Assembly (NCBI RefSeq): GCF_014672835.1
Contig: NZ_CP060244.1
Span: 971,001-1,035,000, forward strand
DNA: 64,000 nt
Direction: 5' to 3'
DNA from: Entomobacter blattae
GTDB taxonomy: Bacteria > Pseudomonadota > Alphaproteobacteria > Acetobacterales > Acetobacteraceae
Shown here: positions 7,741 to 43,228 of the stretch, piece after piece
Layout: the number at the start of each line of letters is the position of its first letter
Numbering within the stretch: position 1 is the first letter of the stretch
The notes under the pieces: generated by a model
Seen by the model: the letters and a program-made list of their open reading frames with translations, nothing else
What the model was told of the DNA's origin: nothing
Databases searched by the model: none
Program-made: the position numbers and the translations under genes

Positions 7741-8235
7741 TATGAACCCGTTCTGGAAGGGCCGCGGAGCAGACCTGGCAGAACTGCAGACCTGAAAACT
7801 CAAGAAGTTCAAAATAAAGGGGTTCAAAGTCAAGGCAAGAGAGCGCCTACTGGTCCTGGCTCTCATATGGAAGAGGTTGCTAAAATAGACTATCTTGTAT
7901 AGGGCAGAGGATCTCGCTTGTACAGGGCAGTGGATACAGGGCAATGGATATTGCCTAGGGCCATAGGTAAAAACATCGGCTGGGTTTAGGCCCTGTTGAG
8001 GCTGTTGATGGGTAGCAAGCAGACAAAGCAGAGAAGAGGTGTAAATAATTCTGTATTTTATGGGCAAATCCCGTTATTTGTGGCACGTTTGGGTTGTTCT
8101 TCTCCTAAGCTTATATCTTCAGCTAAGCGTTTCTCTCTTGAAAGAGGGGAGGAATAGAGGGCAATAGGGGTGAAGAGTAGGGGATCATGGCTTGGGTGTG
8201 TGGCCCGAAAGGGGAAAGGGTATAGGGATAAAGAT
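7741..8235. other. Spacer between the suf relic and rsmB
   Basis: Contains the drifting end of the sufC frame and short repeats (TACAGGGCA/TGGATA words near 7910-7950). No supported gene. An in-frame GTG at 8170 could start rsmB earlier. Confidence 0.5.
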
Positions 8236-27646: not shown

Positions 27647-27776
27647 CTCTAAGCTCTAAGCTCTAAGCTCTAAGCTCTAAGCTCTAAGCTCTAAGCTCTA
27701 AGCTCTAAGCTCTAAGCTCTAAGCTCTAAGCTCTAAGCTCTAAGCTCTAAGCTCTAAGCTCTAAGCTCTAAGCTCT
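27647..27776. repeat. Perfect heptanucleotide tandem array (CTCTAAG)18.5
   Basis: 130 bp of uninterrupted 7-bp repeats, about 18.5 copies by hand count, between the mnmA relic and mnmA. No substitutions seen, so it is young or kept uniform by slippage. A likely variable-number locus. Confidence 0.95.
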
Positions 27777-36594: not shown

Positions 36595-36829
36595 CATCCT
36601 AAGGGATGGTATTTCTAGATGGTATTTCTAAAGGAATGGTGATTTCTATCGAATAGGGGAATGGAACACGAATAGGGTGCCTGGAAAGAGGGTGCTGGAA
36701 AGGCTGGGAGGGGGGCATTTTTTACGGCCGTCTAAGAGGGATTTTGTCATGATGAGAGAGATCATGGGTGAGAGGAATAGAGGGATAATAGGCAAGAGGA
36801 ATAATGACCCGATAAAACGGGGATAGCCT

Positions 36830-38083
36830 TTATGGCTTCGGTAGGCTGGGAGAAACTGCGGGGTGTTCTTGCACGGCAAGCATGTTTTTTGCCAGTGAGC
36901 TGTAGAGGGGGTGGCTGATAAAGCTGGAAATCCCATAGGCAGCAAAAGAGGTGGCAAGAAGGGCAAGAAGGATCTGCTGGTTATCCGTCATTTCCATAAC
37001 AATAACAGCAGCGGTCAGCGGGGATTGCACAACGGCTGAAAAATAGGCAACCATTCCCAGTAAAACCAGGGTTCCCACTGTCGCATGGGGAAAGAATTGG
37101 GCTACCCATCCCCCAAGCCCTGCACCAATGGCCAATGAGGGGGCAAATATTCCCCCCGGAATGCCCGAACAGTAAGACACAATAGTGGCCAGAAATTTAA
37201 AAATAAAAAACGAAGCCGGATAATGGGCATCACCAATGACAATTTCCTTGGCTTGTTCATAGCCCGTGCCATAGGTGGTACCGTGGGAAATCAGCCCGAT
37301 CATGGCCAGAACCAAACCACAAAGAGCCGCAAAGCTTACGGGGTGGCGGTTGAGCCATCCCCCTATTTTTCCGGGTAATCCCTTGGAGGTGGTGATAAGG
37401 ATGCGGGAGAAAAGGCCGCCAGAAATTCCGCCCAGTATGCTACAGGCCATAATCCCTAGCCACTCTACCCCCACAGGCAGCCCCACATTGGCATGGCCAA
37501 AATAGGAGTAGTTTCCAATTAGCGCAATGGTGGTTACCCCAGAGATAACAACAGCGGCCAAAACAGTACCTGTTGTTTTTTGTTCAAATGAATGGCTCAG
37601 TTCTTCAATAGCAAAAACAATTCCCCCCAAGGGTGTGTTAAAGGCAGCGGCAACACCTGCCGCCCCACCCGCGAGAATAAGACTGCGGCGTGCGCCAATA
37701 GCAGTTACTTTGCCGAGTTGGCCAAAATTATGCAATAGGCTGGCCCCCACCTGGCATGTGGGCCCTTCACGGCCAATGGAAGCCCCACAAGCCAACCCCA
37801 ATAGGGTGAGCAGAATTTTCCCCAGGGCTGTTTTAAGGGCCAAGATTTGATCTACCGTTTTCATGTCAGACATGTGTAGGCTGGCAATAACCTGGGGGAT
37901 GCCGCTTCCCTGTGCGCCTTTAAAATAATTTCGTGTGAGCCAGATGGATAAGGCAAGTCCAGCTGGTGAGAGGGCAAGCATGATCCAGGCGTTTGTGTGG
38001 ATGAGCTCCTTTTGCCATTGGGCAATAAGGTTGGCGATACTGGCAAAAACTACGGCAACAAAACCCACCAATATAGCCCCCAC
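36830..38083 (-). CDS. ClC-family chloride channel/antiporter, 5' end broken by an amber codon
   Basis: ClC-type Cl-/H+ exchanger or channel in the inner membrane, 417 residues from GTG 38083. Signature motifs are intact: GSGIPQV, GREGPTCQVGA (the gating Glu), and GIPGGIFAPSLAIGA. About ten membrane helices. In-frame sequence upstream continues the protein to ATG 38176, but codon 24 is TAG (38105-38107) where homologues likely have Trp. Either the gene is newly dead, or translation restarts near 38083 and loses about 31 N-terminal residues (helix A). All other motifs look selected. Confidence 0.8.
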   Translation of the reverse strand: MGAILVGFVAVVFASIANLIAQWQKELIHTNAWIMLALSPAGLALSIWLTRNYFKGAQGSGIPQVIASLHMSDMKTVDQILALKTALGKILLTLLGLACGASIGREGPTCQVGASLLHNFGQLGKVTAIGARRSLILAGGAAGVAAAFNTPLGGIVFAIEELSHSFEQKTTGTVLAAVVISGVTTIALIGNYSYFGHANVGLPVGVEWLGIMACSILGGISGGLFSRILITTSKGLPGKIGGWLNRHPVSFAALCGLVLAMIGLISHGTTYGTGYEQAKEIVIGDAHYPASFFIFKFLATIVSYCSGIPGGIFAPSLAIGAGLGGWVAQFFPHATVGTLVLLGMVAYFSAVVQSPLTAAVIVMEMTDNQQILLALLATSFAAYGISSFISHPLYSSLAKNMLAVQEHPAVSPSLPKP

Positions 38084-38104
38084 CCAGTAGGTCAGCTGCT
38101 TACG

Positions 38105-38107
38105 CTA
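38105..38107 (-). other. In-frame amber stop near the 5' end of the ClC gene
   Basis: Minus-strand reading from ATG 38176 gives 23 codons ending WFAPEQ, then TAG, then RKQLTYWVGAILVGF in the same frame. One base change (TGG or CAG to TAG) would explain it. Confidence 0.75.
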
Positions 38108-38441
38108 CTGTTCTGGTGCAAACCAGGCGGTTCGGCGAAGAGAGAGAAGAGGTTTATTGGGATGGAAAGATGGCATGGCCCTGAAACAAGAAAATGAAAC
38201 TCTGAAGGTTGCGATAAAAGGAAGCGGTTTGCTGAATTCAATATGACCTGAATTATCTGAGATAGATATTTATCACTTTTTCTAAGAAAAGGTAATATTT
38301 GTTAAAAGATGAAACTGTTTAAATCCCTGCTTTCACGCTTTTCCGTTTCTTCTCCTTTCCTTGAGTGTTCTTCTTGAGCTCCAGTGCTGCGGTTTTAGGG
38401 GGTGGTTTGGCAATGGTTTTGGGGAGAATCTCGGGGAGTAT
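38108..38441. other. Spacer upstream of the ClC gene
   Basis: Apart from the first 23 codons of the interrupted ClC frame (to 38176), nothing recognisable. Confidence 0.45.
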
Positions 38442-38567
38442 TTAGTGATTATTGGTGTAAATGCTGGCTTTGTGTTTTATCCGTGAAATACCAGCGTAAT
38501 AGACCTCTTTGGTTGTAGTATAGGAGCAGGTTTCAATATTGACCAGCACCCGATCAGAGCTAAAGAC
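38442..38567 (-). pseudogene. Probable MobF relaxase/helicase C-terminal fragment
   Basis: About 41 codons then a stop: SSDRVLVNIETCSYTTTKEV, YYAGISRIKHKASIYTNN. This fits the C-terminal helicase motif of TraA/TrwC-type conjugative relaxases (QGLTxDRVL...YVxISRAR...IYT). If right, a mobile element once sat here. Identification rests on one motif block. Confidence 0.5.
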
Positions 38568-39408
38568 ACTGAGGAGAAATGAGAACAGGAGGCATGAGAA
38601 GAAGAAGGTTAAAAAATGAAAGAATGGGAGAAAGTGCTTCTAAAAAATAAAATAGTCTAAGGATTATGGGTCTATAAGGATTAAGGCTCTAAAAGAAAAG
38701 GGTTGGGAGGATAGTTGAGGGGATAGATGAGGAACATTTTATCTCAGATGATAGAGCTTTTTAGTTGTGAATGTTTTTATAAAGCTTTTTAGAAAGAGTG
38801 CATAGCGTATCGTAAGCCTTAATAAGGCGTGTTTGAAAGAGAGATATTTCAACCATGCTTGATAAGAGCAGATGGTGGAAATGCTTGTGGTAAAAGTCTT
38901 CTGAATATGCGCATTTTTTACCACAGCCCGTTTGGGAAATGTGCCCTATCTTTGCACAAGGTTATATATCGCTCCAAAAATTCTGAAACAGGTAAAATAC
39001 CCTTTATGGAGAAAGATCCCTTAATGGTAGAATCGTTATTTTGCTCGTAGAAAATATGGTTAGCCTGGGTATTAAAAACGCCATAGCCTGAGCCGTCTAA
39101 CAAAGGTAATGGCATTCTGTTCGCTGTATCCGAATAGGCATTTTTAAACCCTTGTTTGATCATAGGCTGTATGCCACCATCAATGCCCGGGAAAAGTGGG
39201 CAAGCCTAGGGTTTTTCTGAAATGCCCTTGCTAAGGGAGAACACTGCGATCAACTTGCTTAAGACCTTCGACTAGCTTGGAAATTTCCACATCGTAAGGG
39301 AAAATTGCCATTGAAGACATTTTTTGGAGATTTATTAGCCGAATTTACAGGAAAAGATGTTGGCTTTTCTAACCGAGAGGTTCAAAATACTTTCGCTGCC
39401 AAATAAGG
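38568..39408. other. Spacer with unrecognised frames
   Basis: An 81-codon minus-strand frame at 38918-39163 (containing GYGVFNTQANHIFYEQNNDS) has plausible composition but no family I know; it may be another relic. A stretch near 39303-39400 on the plus strand (LPLKTFFGDLLAEFTGKDVG) also looks formerly coding. Nothing else. Confidence 0.4.
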
Positions 39409-39945
39409 TCCTCCTCTTGTGAGTCCTCCTCTTGTGAGTCCTCCTCTTGTGAGTCCTCCTCTTGTGAGTCCTCCTCTTGTGAGTCCTCCTCTTGTGAGTC
39501 CTCCTCTTGTGAGTCCTCCTCTTGTGAGTCCTCCTCTTGTGAGTCCTCCTCTTGTGAGTCCTCCTCTTGTGAGTCCTCCTCTTGTGAGTCCTCCTCTTGT
39601 GAGTCCTCCTCTTGTGAGTCCTCCTCTTGTGAGTCCTCCTCTTGTGAGTCCTCCTCTTGTGAGTCCTCCTCTTGTGAGTCCTCCTCTTGTGAGTCCTCCT
39701 CTTGTGAGTCCTCCTCTTGTGAGTCCTCCTCTTGTGAGTCCTCCTCTTGTGAGTCCTCCTCTTGTGAGTCCTCCTCTTGTGAGTCCTCCTCTTGTGAGTC
39801 CTCCTCTTGTGAGTCCTCCTCTTGTGAGTCCTCCTCTTGTGAGTCCTCCTCTTGTGAGTCCTCCTCTTGTGAGTCCTCCTCTTGTGAGTCCTCCTCTTGT
39901 GAGTCCTCCTCTTGTGAGTCCTCCTCTTGTGAGTCCTCCTCTTGT
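39406..39945. repeat. Perfect 15-bp tandem array, about 36 copies
   Basis: Unit GAGTCCTCCTCTTGT repeated 35 times exactly from 39421 to 39945, preceded by one nearly complete copy. No substitution seen. It ends 14 bp from the stop codon of the TonB-dependent receptor on the minus strand. A 15-bp unit keeps frame: plus-strand reading gives an apparent (SPPLV)n protein at 39419-40033, which I regard as a by-product because it has no start context or homologue. A strong variable-number-repeat candidate. Confidence 0.95.
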
Positions 39946-39958
39946 GAGAGGTTCGTTT

Positions 39959-42907
39959 CTAAAAATTCAGTTTAATGCCGCCATAAAAGCTCCGTCGGGT
40001 GCCAGCAAAAATAGATGGGCGGCTACTTGCTAACACGCTGGCTGGGCTTTCCAGCCCATTTGAAGCTAAAGTGTTACGAATATTGTTGGCAGAGGCAATA
40101 TAGGTGGTATCAAGCAGGTTCTGAATATTTAAAAACAGAGTTATTTTTTTAAAAAAGGCGGCAGCGGTGGGCACAGTATAATGCAGGTTTAGGTTAACCA
40201 GCCTATAGCCATCTGCAGAAATAAGGTTGGCATTATCAAGGGGGAAGGCGCTACGCCAGTTCAGTTCAATAAATCCACCAAGGCCTTGCAGGGGGCCTTC
40301 TTTTTGCTCATAAATAAAGCGTGCATCCAGAAAATGCGGAATAACCCCAGGAATTCTGCGGCCCGCCCGGTTCAGCATAAGCTGTTGGGCGGCATTGGTG
40401 AGTGTTTCATGAAAATTGGTAAAAATCTGGTCATCATACGTGTAATTAACACTGAGCTTCATGCTAGGCAATTGTTCAGGTAAGGGGGTGAGCTCGGTGA
40501 GGAACTCTATACCCCTGTGCTGGGAGTTGGGAACGTTAAAGCTATAGGCATTGGCATTGTTAGAGGAATATTGGGTAATGAGCTCATTGGTATGGAATTC
40601 GTAAAAGCCGGTGGTTTGAAGGTGAAGGATCTGACCGTAATGCCAGTCTTCCCCAATATCAAGGCCCAAGCTCTTTTCACCCTTTAGGTCTGTATTGTTA
40701 CCAAACAGGCCATCTGGCCTGACAAACAAGGCAGAAGTGCTGGGGGTATTATACCCCATGGCTACGCGTCCCAATAGGGCAAGGTCTGCCATTGGGTGAT
40801 AGGTTACGGCAGCCTCTGGGGCAATGTTGGTAAAGTCACGCTGGACTGGCACATAGGTGGGGGAGAGAATGCCCGCTGGGGTATAATTGTAAATGGTTTG
40901 CAAGGCTTGCGTGCCAGTATGCTCCCCTCCTACTCCAACGACAACCTGCCATTGCTTGTTGATTTGCAAGGTTTCCTCAAGCCTTGCACCAGCATTCCAC
41001 TGGTTTCCATAATTGGTTTGGGCTAAGGCGCCCACGCTGGCCTGCCCCGCAGGGGAAACATTATAGACCTTGGAGCCATAATCGAGATAATTGAAGTTGG
41101 CTCCGGTAAAAGTGGTAATATTGTACCCTGCTATATTATCTATCCGGGTGAGGTCACTCATATAATTATAAGAGTTATAAGGCCCCCGGTAGCTTAGGGC
41201 CGTGGTGGGTTGGCTGATATGGCGCTCATCATAGGTGAATTGGTTGCGCCATAAGGTTTGGGAGGTAAAATTATGCTCCCAGCGCACGCCAATAATGGTA
41301 CGCCGGTCAAATCGGCCTAAGCCGGCTAGCTCGGCACTCATGGTATGAGATGAGCCATAGGCCCCGTTATCGTAAAGAGAGACAGAAGCACACCCCGCCC
41401 CTTGCAAGGTGAGGCAGTTTTTCTGAAAAGGGTTTTGATGATATTGGTCAAACGTTAACCGAAGGGGTTGCAATGTTTTGGTAATGTTGTTGATGGCTTT
41501 AAAAATCAGCTTGTCTTGCGGGCTGAGGGTAAAGGTCATCAAGCTATTAAGGGTAGAGGTTTCGTAAGCGGAATTGGCTGTTAGGCCGGTTCCTCTGACA
41601 TCGCTGCCAAACAAGCTTATATCGTAATTCTCGCCGGCCTTGCCAAAGGTGGCATAATTGTTGAAGGTGGCATAGGAGCCAAAATCTGAACCAACCTGAA
41701 GGCCATCAATCTCCTTACCGCGATGGGTATGAAAATTAATAGCCCCGTAAAGGGCGTAATTGCCAAACACTGTCGAGGAAGGCCCTTGGAACACATCGAC
41801 ACTTTCATAGGCATGTGGGTCTATAAGATCCGCACGAGAAGTACCATCGGGTTGGGTTACGGGAAAACCGTCATCAAAGAGGACGATATTGCTAATCCCA
41901 TAGCTGCGCTGGCTGTTAGACCCTCGAAGAGAAAGGGACGTATCGCGTGGCCCATTGCCGGTGCGGTAGGAAAAACCTGGGACGGTAATGAGCATATCGG
42001 CAACGGTGAGGGCCGGGGTAAGGTTATAGGTTTCTTCCGTTACGTTATAGTGCGTTTGCCCCTGTGGATGTAAGAGTGAGGGCTGCGGCTTTCTTTGTGC
42101 CTTGATGACCACAGTTTCAGAAACAGTTGGTGGCGGGGCTGTTGGGCTTGGGGCTGGGTGGTGGGTGGATGCGCTTACCTTGAAGGAGGCTTGATGCGGG
42201 AAATCTGCGCGGGAGAGTGTTGTTTTTATGCCTGTTTTAGGCGGAGGCTTGGGGGGTAGGGAGGCGACTTGAAGGGGATTGCGGGCTTTCCCCTTCCTTT
42301 TGGCTTGGGAGCTGGCCTTTAAAGAGACGGGGAGTGTGTTTGTTTTAGGGCTTGTTCTATCGGCGTTGCTCAGATGTGCTTTGCCAAGATGTGTTTTGCT
42401 AAGAGGGGTCTTGCCAGAATATGTTTTGCTCAGGCTGCTCTTATGGGGGCTGCTTATGCCAGGGCTCACAAGGGCCTCTCGGGTGGTAGGCCTTATGCGG
42501 GCTTTGGCAACGCCTGGCAGTGATATCATGGCGATGGGGATTATATAAACCAAGGCTTTTCCCAAGGTTTTCCCCAAGTCTTTTTTCAGAGTTTTTCCCA
42601 GAGTTTCACCCAGAGCTTTTCCTAGACCCTTTCCCAGGCTTCTTCCCAAACCTCTTCCCAGGAATTTTGTCAGAAACTTTGTCAGAAATTCTGCTGAAAT
42701 TTTTGCCAGAAATTTTACCGGAAATTTTGCCAGAAAAATAATGTGAAAAATAATGTGAATAATAACTGGAACAATCGATGGAAAGGCCGTGTTCTTTCTG
42801 CCGTAGGGTGTATTCAGTTGGAAGGGGAAAAGGTGAGTTGGGATGGCAAGAGAGGACAATAAGGGGGAGAGGCAAGAAGAGGAATGTGCCCGTTTTGGAT
42901 ACGTCAT
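39959..42907 (-). CDS. TonB-dependent outer membrane receptor with a repeat-derived N-terminal extension
   Basis: Outer membrane gated transporter, probably for a siderophore or other metal chelate. Plug domain from about residue 290: PALTVADMLITVPGFSYRTG, LSLRGSN, VLFDDGFPVTQPDG, YESVDVFQGPSSTVFG. The remainder is the 22-strand barrel, ending with aromatic terminal F (SFYGGIKLNF). The signal peptide (VYIIPIAMISLPGVAKA) sits about 130 residues in, preceded by repeats of GKxLGKxLG/KFLAKF type, so the real start may be an unannotated TTG or GTG nearer the signal peptide. A Thr/Pro-rich linker with TonB-box-like sequence follows. Substrate not identifiable. Confidence 0.85.
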   Translation of the reverse strand: MTYPKRAHSSSCLSPLLSSLAIPTHLFPFQLNTPYGRKNTAFPSIVPVIIHIIFHIIFLAKFPVKFLAKISAEFLTKFLTKFLGRGLGRSLGKGLGKALGETLGKTLKKDLGKTLGKALVYIIPIAMISLPGVAKARIRPTTREALVSPGISSPHKSSLSKTYSGKTPLSKTHLGKAHLSNADRTSPKTNTLPVSLKASSQAKRKGKARNPLQVASLPPKPPPKTGIKTTLSRADFPHQASFKVSASTHHPAPSPTAPPPTVSETVVIKAQRKPQPSLLHPQGQTHYNVTEETYNLTPALTVADMLITVPGFSYRTGNGPRDTSLSLRGSNSQRSYGISNIVLFDDGFPVTQPDGTSRADLIDPHAYESVDVFQGPSSTVFGNYALYGAINFHTHRGKEIDGLQVGSDFGSYATFNNYATFGKAGENYDISLFGSDVRGTGLTANSAYETSTLNSLMTFTLSPQDKLIFKAINNITKTLQPLRLTFDQYHQNPFQKNCLTLQGAGCASVSLYDNGAYGSSHTMSAELAGLGRFDRRTIIGVRWEHNFTSQTLWRNQFTYDERHISQPTTALSYRGPYNSYNYMSDLTRIDNIAGYNITTFTGANFNYLDYGSKVYNVSPAGQASVGALAQTNYGNQWNAGARLEETLQINKQWQVVVGVGGEHTGTQALQTIYNYTPAGILSPTYVPVQRDFTNIAPEAAVTYHPMADLALLGRVAMGYNTPSTSALFVRPDGLFGNNTDLKGEKSLGLDIGEDWHYGQILHLQTTGFYEFHTNELITQYSSNNANAYSFNVPNSQHRGIEFLTELTPLPEQLPSMKLSVNYTYDDQIFTNFHETLTNAAQQLMLNRAGRRIPGVIPHFLDARFIYEQKEGPLQGLGGFIELNWRSAFPLDNANLISADGYRLVNLNLHYTVPTAAAFFKKITLFLNIQNLLDTTYIASANNIRNTLASNGLESPASVLASSRPSIFAGTRRSFYGGIKLNF

Positions 42908-43228
42908 GAAAAATCCTGTTTTACAGTAGGCCCTGTTTATTTTTGTGGGATGGTATTTTGATTGGAAGGCCTTTGTCTTTTTTTTAATTTTACAGAGGGA
43001 AGTTCGTAAAATAAACCTTAAAGGCAGTGTGTTTTATGGATTTTTCTGATAGGAAACAGAATTTTTCAAAGCTTTGTTATAGTATTACCTTGCCAGGGTG
43101 TATAAGAGCCAAGGTATTTGTAAGTGCCAAGGTGTTATAAGCATCAGAGTATTACTAAGTGCTAGGGTGTTATAAGCCTGTTTTTTTGAAGGATAAAGAA
43201 GGTTTGGAGGCTGAGGGTATGCGAGCTC
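42908..43228. other. Spacer with a 17-bp minisatellite
   Basis: No gene. The tandem repeat is at 43095-43177; the rest should carry the receptor promoter. I see no convincing Fur box. Confidence 0.45.
43095..43177. repeat. Degenerate minisatellite, unit about 17 bp
   Basis: Five imperfect copies near AGGTGTTATAAGTGCCA, between the receptor and the CDF transporter gene. Confidence 0.6.

Follow-up and report, generated by a model that had tools for sequence, protein, structure and literature searches.

A perfect 36-copy minisatellite with a 15-bp unit beyond a TonB-dependent receptor gene of Entomobacter blattae, a genome rich in short tandem repeats

A perfect 15-bp array lies just beyond a TonB-dependent receptor gene

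The window analysed here is a 64,000-bp stretch (971001-1035000) of the Entomobacter blattae genome, which is a single 2,701,842-bp contig. On its minus strand it carries a gene for a TonB-dependent receptor, which is followed beyond the stop codon by a short spacer, a perfect tandem array, a 1.3-kb stretch and a chloride channel (ClcA-like) gene (Table 1). The receptor matched the Pfam plug (1.2e-13) and barrel (1.4e-29) domains. Its best solved sequences were YncD and a pyrroloquinoline quinone transporter, and against the NCBIfam PqqU model it scored 123, far under the model's cut-off of 1200. The best 80 of 209 relatives were 42-50% identical to it, many of them from Acetobacteraceae and Bradyrhizobium and a few from other groups, including Edaphobacter. 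The C-terminus of the receptor aligned with two relatives through its final residue, and the array therefore lies outside the gene. The N-terminal extension of the receptor, which consists partly of degenerate 12-bp repeats, is absent from two aligned relatives.

Table 1. Features of the array locus and a second perfect array in the window (positions are those of the window; a dot marks features given without a strand)
Feature	Position	Strand	Details	Source
Second perfect array	27647..27776	.	CTCTAAG x18.6, outside kept ORFs	TRF
Chloride channel (ClcA-like) gene	36830..38083	-	next large same-strand ORF beyond the array	ORF list
1.3-kb stretch	38084..39407	.	array to ClcA-like gene	ORF list, Pfam, genome similarity
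Perfect tandem array	39408..39948	.	36.07 x GTCCTCCTCTTGTGA (+) / TCACAAGAGGAGGAC (-)	TRF, exact-period scan, sequence
Spacer	39949..39958	.	10 bp, array to receptor stop codon	sequence, ORF list
TonB-dependent receptor gene	39959..42907	-	982 aa, TAG stop 39959-39961	ORF list, Pfam, alignment
Degenerate 12-bp tandem repeats (coding)	42557..42765	-	receptor N-terminal extension	TRF rows

TRF reported the array with period 15, 36.1 copies, a 100% match and a score of 1082, and an exact-period scan returned the same limits (541 bp, 36.07 copies). These results confirm the unit and the perfection of the 36-copy array described in the original prediction, which had set its limits two to three bases off (39406-39945) and had placed it 14 bp from the receptor stop rather than 10 bp. 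All three unit frames are open on the receptor strand, as had been stated, and the receptor's own frame reads HKRRT. On the plus strand one frame has a stop in each unit, leaving five of the six frames of the array open.

An order-1 Markov resample of the window (n = 1) gave no TRF rows compared to the 67 observed, which excludes chance as the source of the repeats. An exact tandem pair of the unit was found at no second site in the E. blattae genome, and in only one of 397 family genomes, its own; the 396 others, in which it was absent, and the 39 other genomes compared here include none of the same species or genus. Location of the array in a mobile or viral element was rejected, as the exact two-unit pattern had no matches in IMG/VR and no other genomic site. 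No match to Rfam at gathering scores and no tRNA were found in the window. The units abut without the unique spacers that separate the repeats of CRISPR arrays. Bacterial minisatellites, or variable-number tandem repeats (VNTRs), are head-to-tail arrays with a unit of roughly 6-100 bp, and the array, at 36.07 copies of 15 bp with 100% match, is a minisatellite of this known kind that is extreme in size.

The surroundings of the receptor relatives were compared with this locus. Across 91 loci of other genomes (L010-L100; 960 kb, mostly around receptor relatives) no comparable array was detected, and the strongest TRF score was 102 versus 1082 for the 15-bp array. A PepSY-like gene lies directly downstream, starting within about 400 bp, at 47 of 82 receptor loci, a count in which L010 and L056 are apparently one locus counted twice. 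A decayed PepSY-type gene beside the E. blattae receptor was considered and rejected, as the query matched nothing in 36801-43000 of the window and left no remnant to report. The 1.3-kb stretch between the array and the ClcA-like gene contains a single ORF of at least 80 aa (81 aa), which has no Pfam match. Pieces of this stretch recur at nine other places in the genome at 69-90% identity, and it possibly belongs to a degraded dispersed repeat family.

The E. blattae genome contains many exact arrays

Exact arrays (at least four copies, at least 28 bp, periods 4-40) were collected from 56 stretches of 20 kb and from the window up to its position 60 kb, giving 59 stretches and 1.18 Mb. This sample contained 32 arrays, of which the 15-bp array was the longest and the next was 278 bp. 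Their periods were 7 bp in 13 arrays, 6 bp in six, 8 bp in four, 5 bp in three and 9 bp in two, with one array each of 10, 12, 13 and 15 bp. The original prediction had noted that every 15-bp unit stays in frame. Periods divisible by three are not a common feature of the genome's arrays, 22 of the 32 having other periods, and unit length is thus not tuned to three. Fourteen arrays lie between ORFs of the same direction, five between convergent and four between divergent ORFs, and six are inside ORFs; three are unassignable at stretch edges. In this classification the 15-bp array was cut from its receptor; by the ORFs of the window it stands between two same-strand ORFs. The 31 stretches that start at 0.8-1.6 Mb hold 25 of the 32 arrays (binomial P 0.003), a value to be read with the facts that these limits were picked after the data had been seen and that two of the 25 arrays are copies of one duplicated locus.

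A scan of the first 464 kb of E. blattae and of 400 kb from five control genomes (at least three copies, at least 18 bp) revealed 15 arrays in E. blattae, nine of them with at least 6.6 copies, and four in the controls, none above 4.0 copies. TRF rows per 100 kb were 104.7 in the window and 26.8 in the other E. blattae DNA sampled (first 400 kb), compared to 15.0, 6.7, 2.5, 2.0 and 1.7 in controls G008, G035, G037, G021 and G032. The highest of these, G008, includes a 5.6-copy, 98% array with a 14-bp unit. Because the controls have a higher GC content and less non-coding DNA, rates were also computed per non-coding base. Along the E. blattae chromosome, the 28 stretches sampled outside 0.8-1.6 Mb had 0.5-4.5 TRF rows per 10 kb, compared to 7-14 in nine stretches starting at 0.97-1.30 Mb, pieces of the window included.

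Short tandem duplications are densest in a zone that holds the window

To count short tandem duplications, we recorded runs of at least nine matching bases at offsets of 8-30 bp and masked arrays of at least three copies. A zone of about 0.89-1.34 Mb, which holds the window and whose limits were set after the data had been seen, had 7.1 duplications per 10 kb of coding and 25.4 per 10 kb of non-coding DNA (20 stretches). The corresponding values were 3.1 and 17.7 in the shoulder (11 stretches), 2.0 and 10.3 in the rest of the genome (28 stretches) and 2.3 and 3.0 in the five controls (20 stretches). The zone differed from the rest of the genome with Mann-Whitney P values of 2e-6 for coding and 2e-7 for non-coding DNA; relative to the chromosome outside 0.8-1.6 Mb, and with arrays masked, its excess was 3.5-fold and 2.5-fold, respectively. 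Unmasked counts put the regions in the same order. At the background offsets of 200-291 bp there were about 2-8 runs per stretch both inside and outside the zone. Outside the zone the excess over the controls was confined to non-coding DNA, the coding rate being 2.0 versus 2.3 in the controls. Non-coding rates among the controls ranged from 0.9 per 10 kb in G021 to 11.5 in G008 (five runs in 4.4 kb). The G008 rate is close to that of E. blattae outside the zone and G008 also has the 5.6-copy array, and a duplication excess is therefore not unique to E. blattae.

In non-coding DNA of the zone the remainders 0, 1 and 2 after division of the offset by three occurred 114, 108 and 129 times (chi-square P 0.62), showing no frame preference. 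In coding DNA of the zone they occurred 149, 16 and 20 times, thus mostly in frame, and likewise 60, 11 and 9 times in coding DNA of the controls, where such a bias is expected from selection and repetitive proteins. The pattern is what a frame-blind process filtered by selection would leave. With arrays left out, non-coding duplications of the zone peaked at 13-18 bp and were highest at 15-16 bp, although the lower side of this peak is uncertain because the nine-base threshold cuts duplications shorter than about 11 bp. Per 100 kb, the zone had 26.7 duplications of 15 bp and 27.5 of 16 bp; the rest of the genome had 13.4 and 10.9, and the controls had 7.0 and 1.8, respectively.

The zone also differs in base composition. 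GC content was 0.501 versus 0.423 in the comparison DNA at third positions and 0.438 versus 0.398 in non-coding DNA, and across the 59 stretches duplication density (arrays included) correlated with non-coding GC (Spearman 0.53 for non-coding and 0.63 for coding duplications). GC skew is positive throughout the zone, with sign changes near 0.6 and 1.9 Mb; dnaA is at 1.965 Mb. Whichever of these changes marks the origin, the zone lies within one replichore. These observations raise the idea that a distinct mutation process in this roughly 0.5-Mb zone both generates tandem duplications of about 15 bp and increases GC, an idea that we regard as doubtful and offer tentatively. Frequent fork breakage and repair, with GC-biased repair, is a possible cause, and under such a zone-specific process the 36-copy array would be the most conspicuous case in the zone. 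A small search of open-licence papers gave no precedent for a regional hotspot of short duplications in a bacterial chromosome.

Two other arrays differ in size between paralogous copies

We examined whether arrays of this genome change in length by comparing paralogous copies of their loci. A TTTGGTG array (L153) has 14 units at 2472-2569 and four units at 8095-8122 in an inverted copy 5.5 kb away. The two copies are 98.1% identical over 268 aligned bases and their difference is a clean 70-bp gap. A second array, CATTGGCCCT x5.7 (L173), has no full unit in its paralog (L146), which is 91.1% identical over 247 bases. Three further pairs (L106/L184, L171/L155 and L173/L158) aligned along part of one side only and were left out as uninformative. 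The flanks of the 15-bp array had no paralogous copy in the 1.18-Mb sample. The recent or ongoing expansion proposed for the 15-bp array thus gains indirect support from the two other arrays that differ between paralogs, while no change in size was seen at the 15-bp array itself.

The array is probably a neutral product of short tandem duplication

Taken together, these results make it probable that the array is a neutral minisatellite, the largest product of the genome's short-duplication process, rather than a device that acts on the receptor. A 15-bp stretch just past the receptor gene may have been duplicated by this process, in DNA where insertions would be tolerated. The duplicate could then have grown through strand slippage or unequal exchange between units, and a fast turnover that replaces mutated units would keep all 36 copies identical. 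Such a history needs no effect on the receptor, and copy number would be expected to drift.

Loss of repair functions was considered as a global cause of slippage and rejected for the four genes or domains sought first, as MutS (open frame of 933 aa), MutL (651 aa), RecA (348 aa) and the PolA 5'-nuclease domain (in a 979-aa frame) are all present. No Ku match was found in 15 of 24 genomes and no SbcD match in 13 of 24, E. blattae included in both cases; because many relatives also have no matches, these absences do not set the genome apart. Given the lack of a Ku match, Ku-dependent end joining is a less likely source of the duplications. No repair defect was found that would account for slippage in this genome. 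Among the long arrays, 7 bp rather than 15 bp is the prevailing unit (13 of 32), so the duplications and the long arrays may differ in cause.

The original prediction had suggested that the array could affect termination or mRNA stability. No evidence was found that it acts on the receptor, which ends where two relatives end. A role for the array as a regulatory 3' element of the receptor mRNA, with copy number tuning termination, decay or ribosome behaviour, is improbable. The start of the array 10 bp beyond the receptor stop codon fits such an element, and on the receptor strand the unit carries AGGAGG, a Shine-Dalgarno-like hexamer, 36 times. The unit has no ATG, GTG or TTG on this strand, and a putative use of the hexamer finds no support. 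A search of 37900-40100 revealed no terminator-like site on the receptor strand, and receptor transcripts may therefore enter the array; the two such sites on the plus strand in the same interval are within chance. On the receptor strand, the array's far end has a moderately better fold than most shuffles (z -2.4), whereas the fold at the end nearest the stop codon is unremarkable (z -1.1). Against a regulatory element stand the varied gene positions of the genome's 32 arrays and the absence of such an array from the 91 loci of other genomes, where a PepSY-like gene often lies downstream of the receptor instead.

In other bacteria, perfect repeats next to the gene of a surface receptor are a typical mark of switching loci, and the array could in principle be a contingency locus in which changes in copy number switch receptor or ClcA-like gene expression as a form of bet-hedging. 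The size differences between paralogs of two other arrays would suit this explanation. However, at phase-variation loci the array is within a reading frame or promoter and its copy number alters expression. Judged from ORF positions, the 15-bp array lies past the receptor stop, and 1324 bp separate it from the start listed for the ClcA-like ORF. In addition, the genome's arrays have no common gene context and 15-bp units cannot shift a reading frame, all of which makes a contingency locus very improbable.

It is also highly unlikely that an assembler invented the copy number or the perfection of the array. Short reads cannot bridge a perfect 541-bp array, but an artefact is hardly expected to yield a one-contig genome in which many arrays differ in unit and length, and two-copy duplications, which short reads can resolve, follow the same regional pattern. 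Lastly, the notion that the array belongs, or until recently belonged, to a protein, either a receptor tail of HKRRT or a plus-strand frame of PPLVS, can practically be dismissed: five of six frames are open and a plus-strand ORF of 204 aa spans the array, but this ORF is mostly the repeat itself, the receptor ends where its two relatives end and other arrays have periods of 5, 7, 8, 10 and 13. Loss of the receptor stop would indeed add a tail, as originally predicted, of about 207 residues with 36 HKRRT repeats; this describes a hypothetical mutant and not a function.

Relation to known bacterial repeats

The array resembles the VNTR loci used in MLVA typing, being tandem, located between genes and built of a unit in the size range that is typed. 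In our judgement, its 36 identical copies are long and uniform for such a locus. The array population of the genome recalls the long simple sequence repeats (LSSRs; Mrazek et al. 2007, as cited in PMC4679880 and PMC4692102), which are described as scattered among bacteria; in many genomes heptamers are reported to be over-represented or the most frequent class, and polymerase slippage is the proposed cause (PMC4692102, PMC4679880). Heptamers are likewise the commonest class in E. blattae (13 of 32). LSSR units are given as 5-11 nt (PMC4679880), a range that includes the periods of 29 of the 32 E. blattae arrays (5-10 bp) and leaves out the 15-bp unit. The Xanthomonas GGGAATC and Nostoc GGGGA(C/T)T heptamers likewise form many, mostly intergenic arrays of variable length within a genome, but there a single G-rich motif is repeated genome-wide (PMC4692102), while the units of E. 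blattae vary, several sharing CTCTA. The TAACTGA repeats of Beggiatoaceae are also abundant intergenic heptamers and are one motif mainly upstream of start codons (PMC4679880), unlike the E. blattae arrays, which have no fixed motif or position.

The 15-bp array may serve as a variable typing marker, and it warns against assuming a function for every perfect repeat that adjoins a gene. More important than the array is the regional pattern of duplications. If duplication is truly concentrated in one zone with higher GC, the influence of chromosomal location on the rate of one mutation class could be tested directly in this species, and, to judge from our small literature search, such a regional hotspot of short tandem duplication would be new for a bacterial chromosome.

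Several further repeats were observed. The CTCTAAG array of the window is 289 bp before an ORF whose N-terminus looks like that of MnmA. Heptamer arrays sharing CTCTA are located at 435019-435289, 998647-998770, 1523382-1523470, 2201403-2201505 and 2328621-2328709, with AA, AG, GT, AG and AT, in this order, as the last two letters; the CTCTAAG array near 2.2014 Mb is outside the 1.18-Mb sample. Because these five arrays share CTCTA, their units may not be random. A coding-region counterpart of the long arrays is found in a 1187-aa ORF (L175, 10114-13674, minus strand), in which the 6-bp unit CCTGAG forms a perfect array with 39.5 copies. The TRF output also contained CRISPR-like repeats, GTGTTCCCCGCACACGCGGGGATGAACCG (L108, 13622-14809), which may resemble type I-E repeats.
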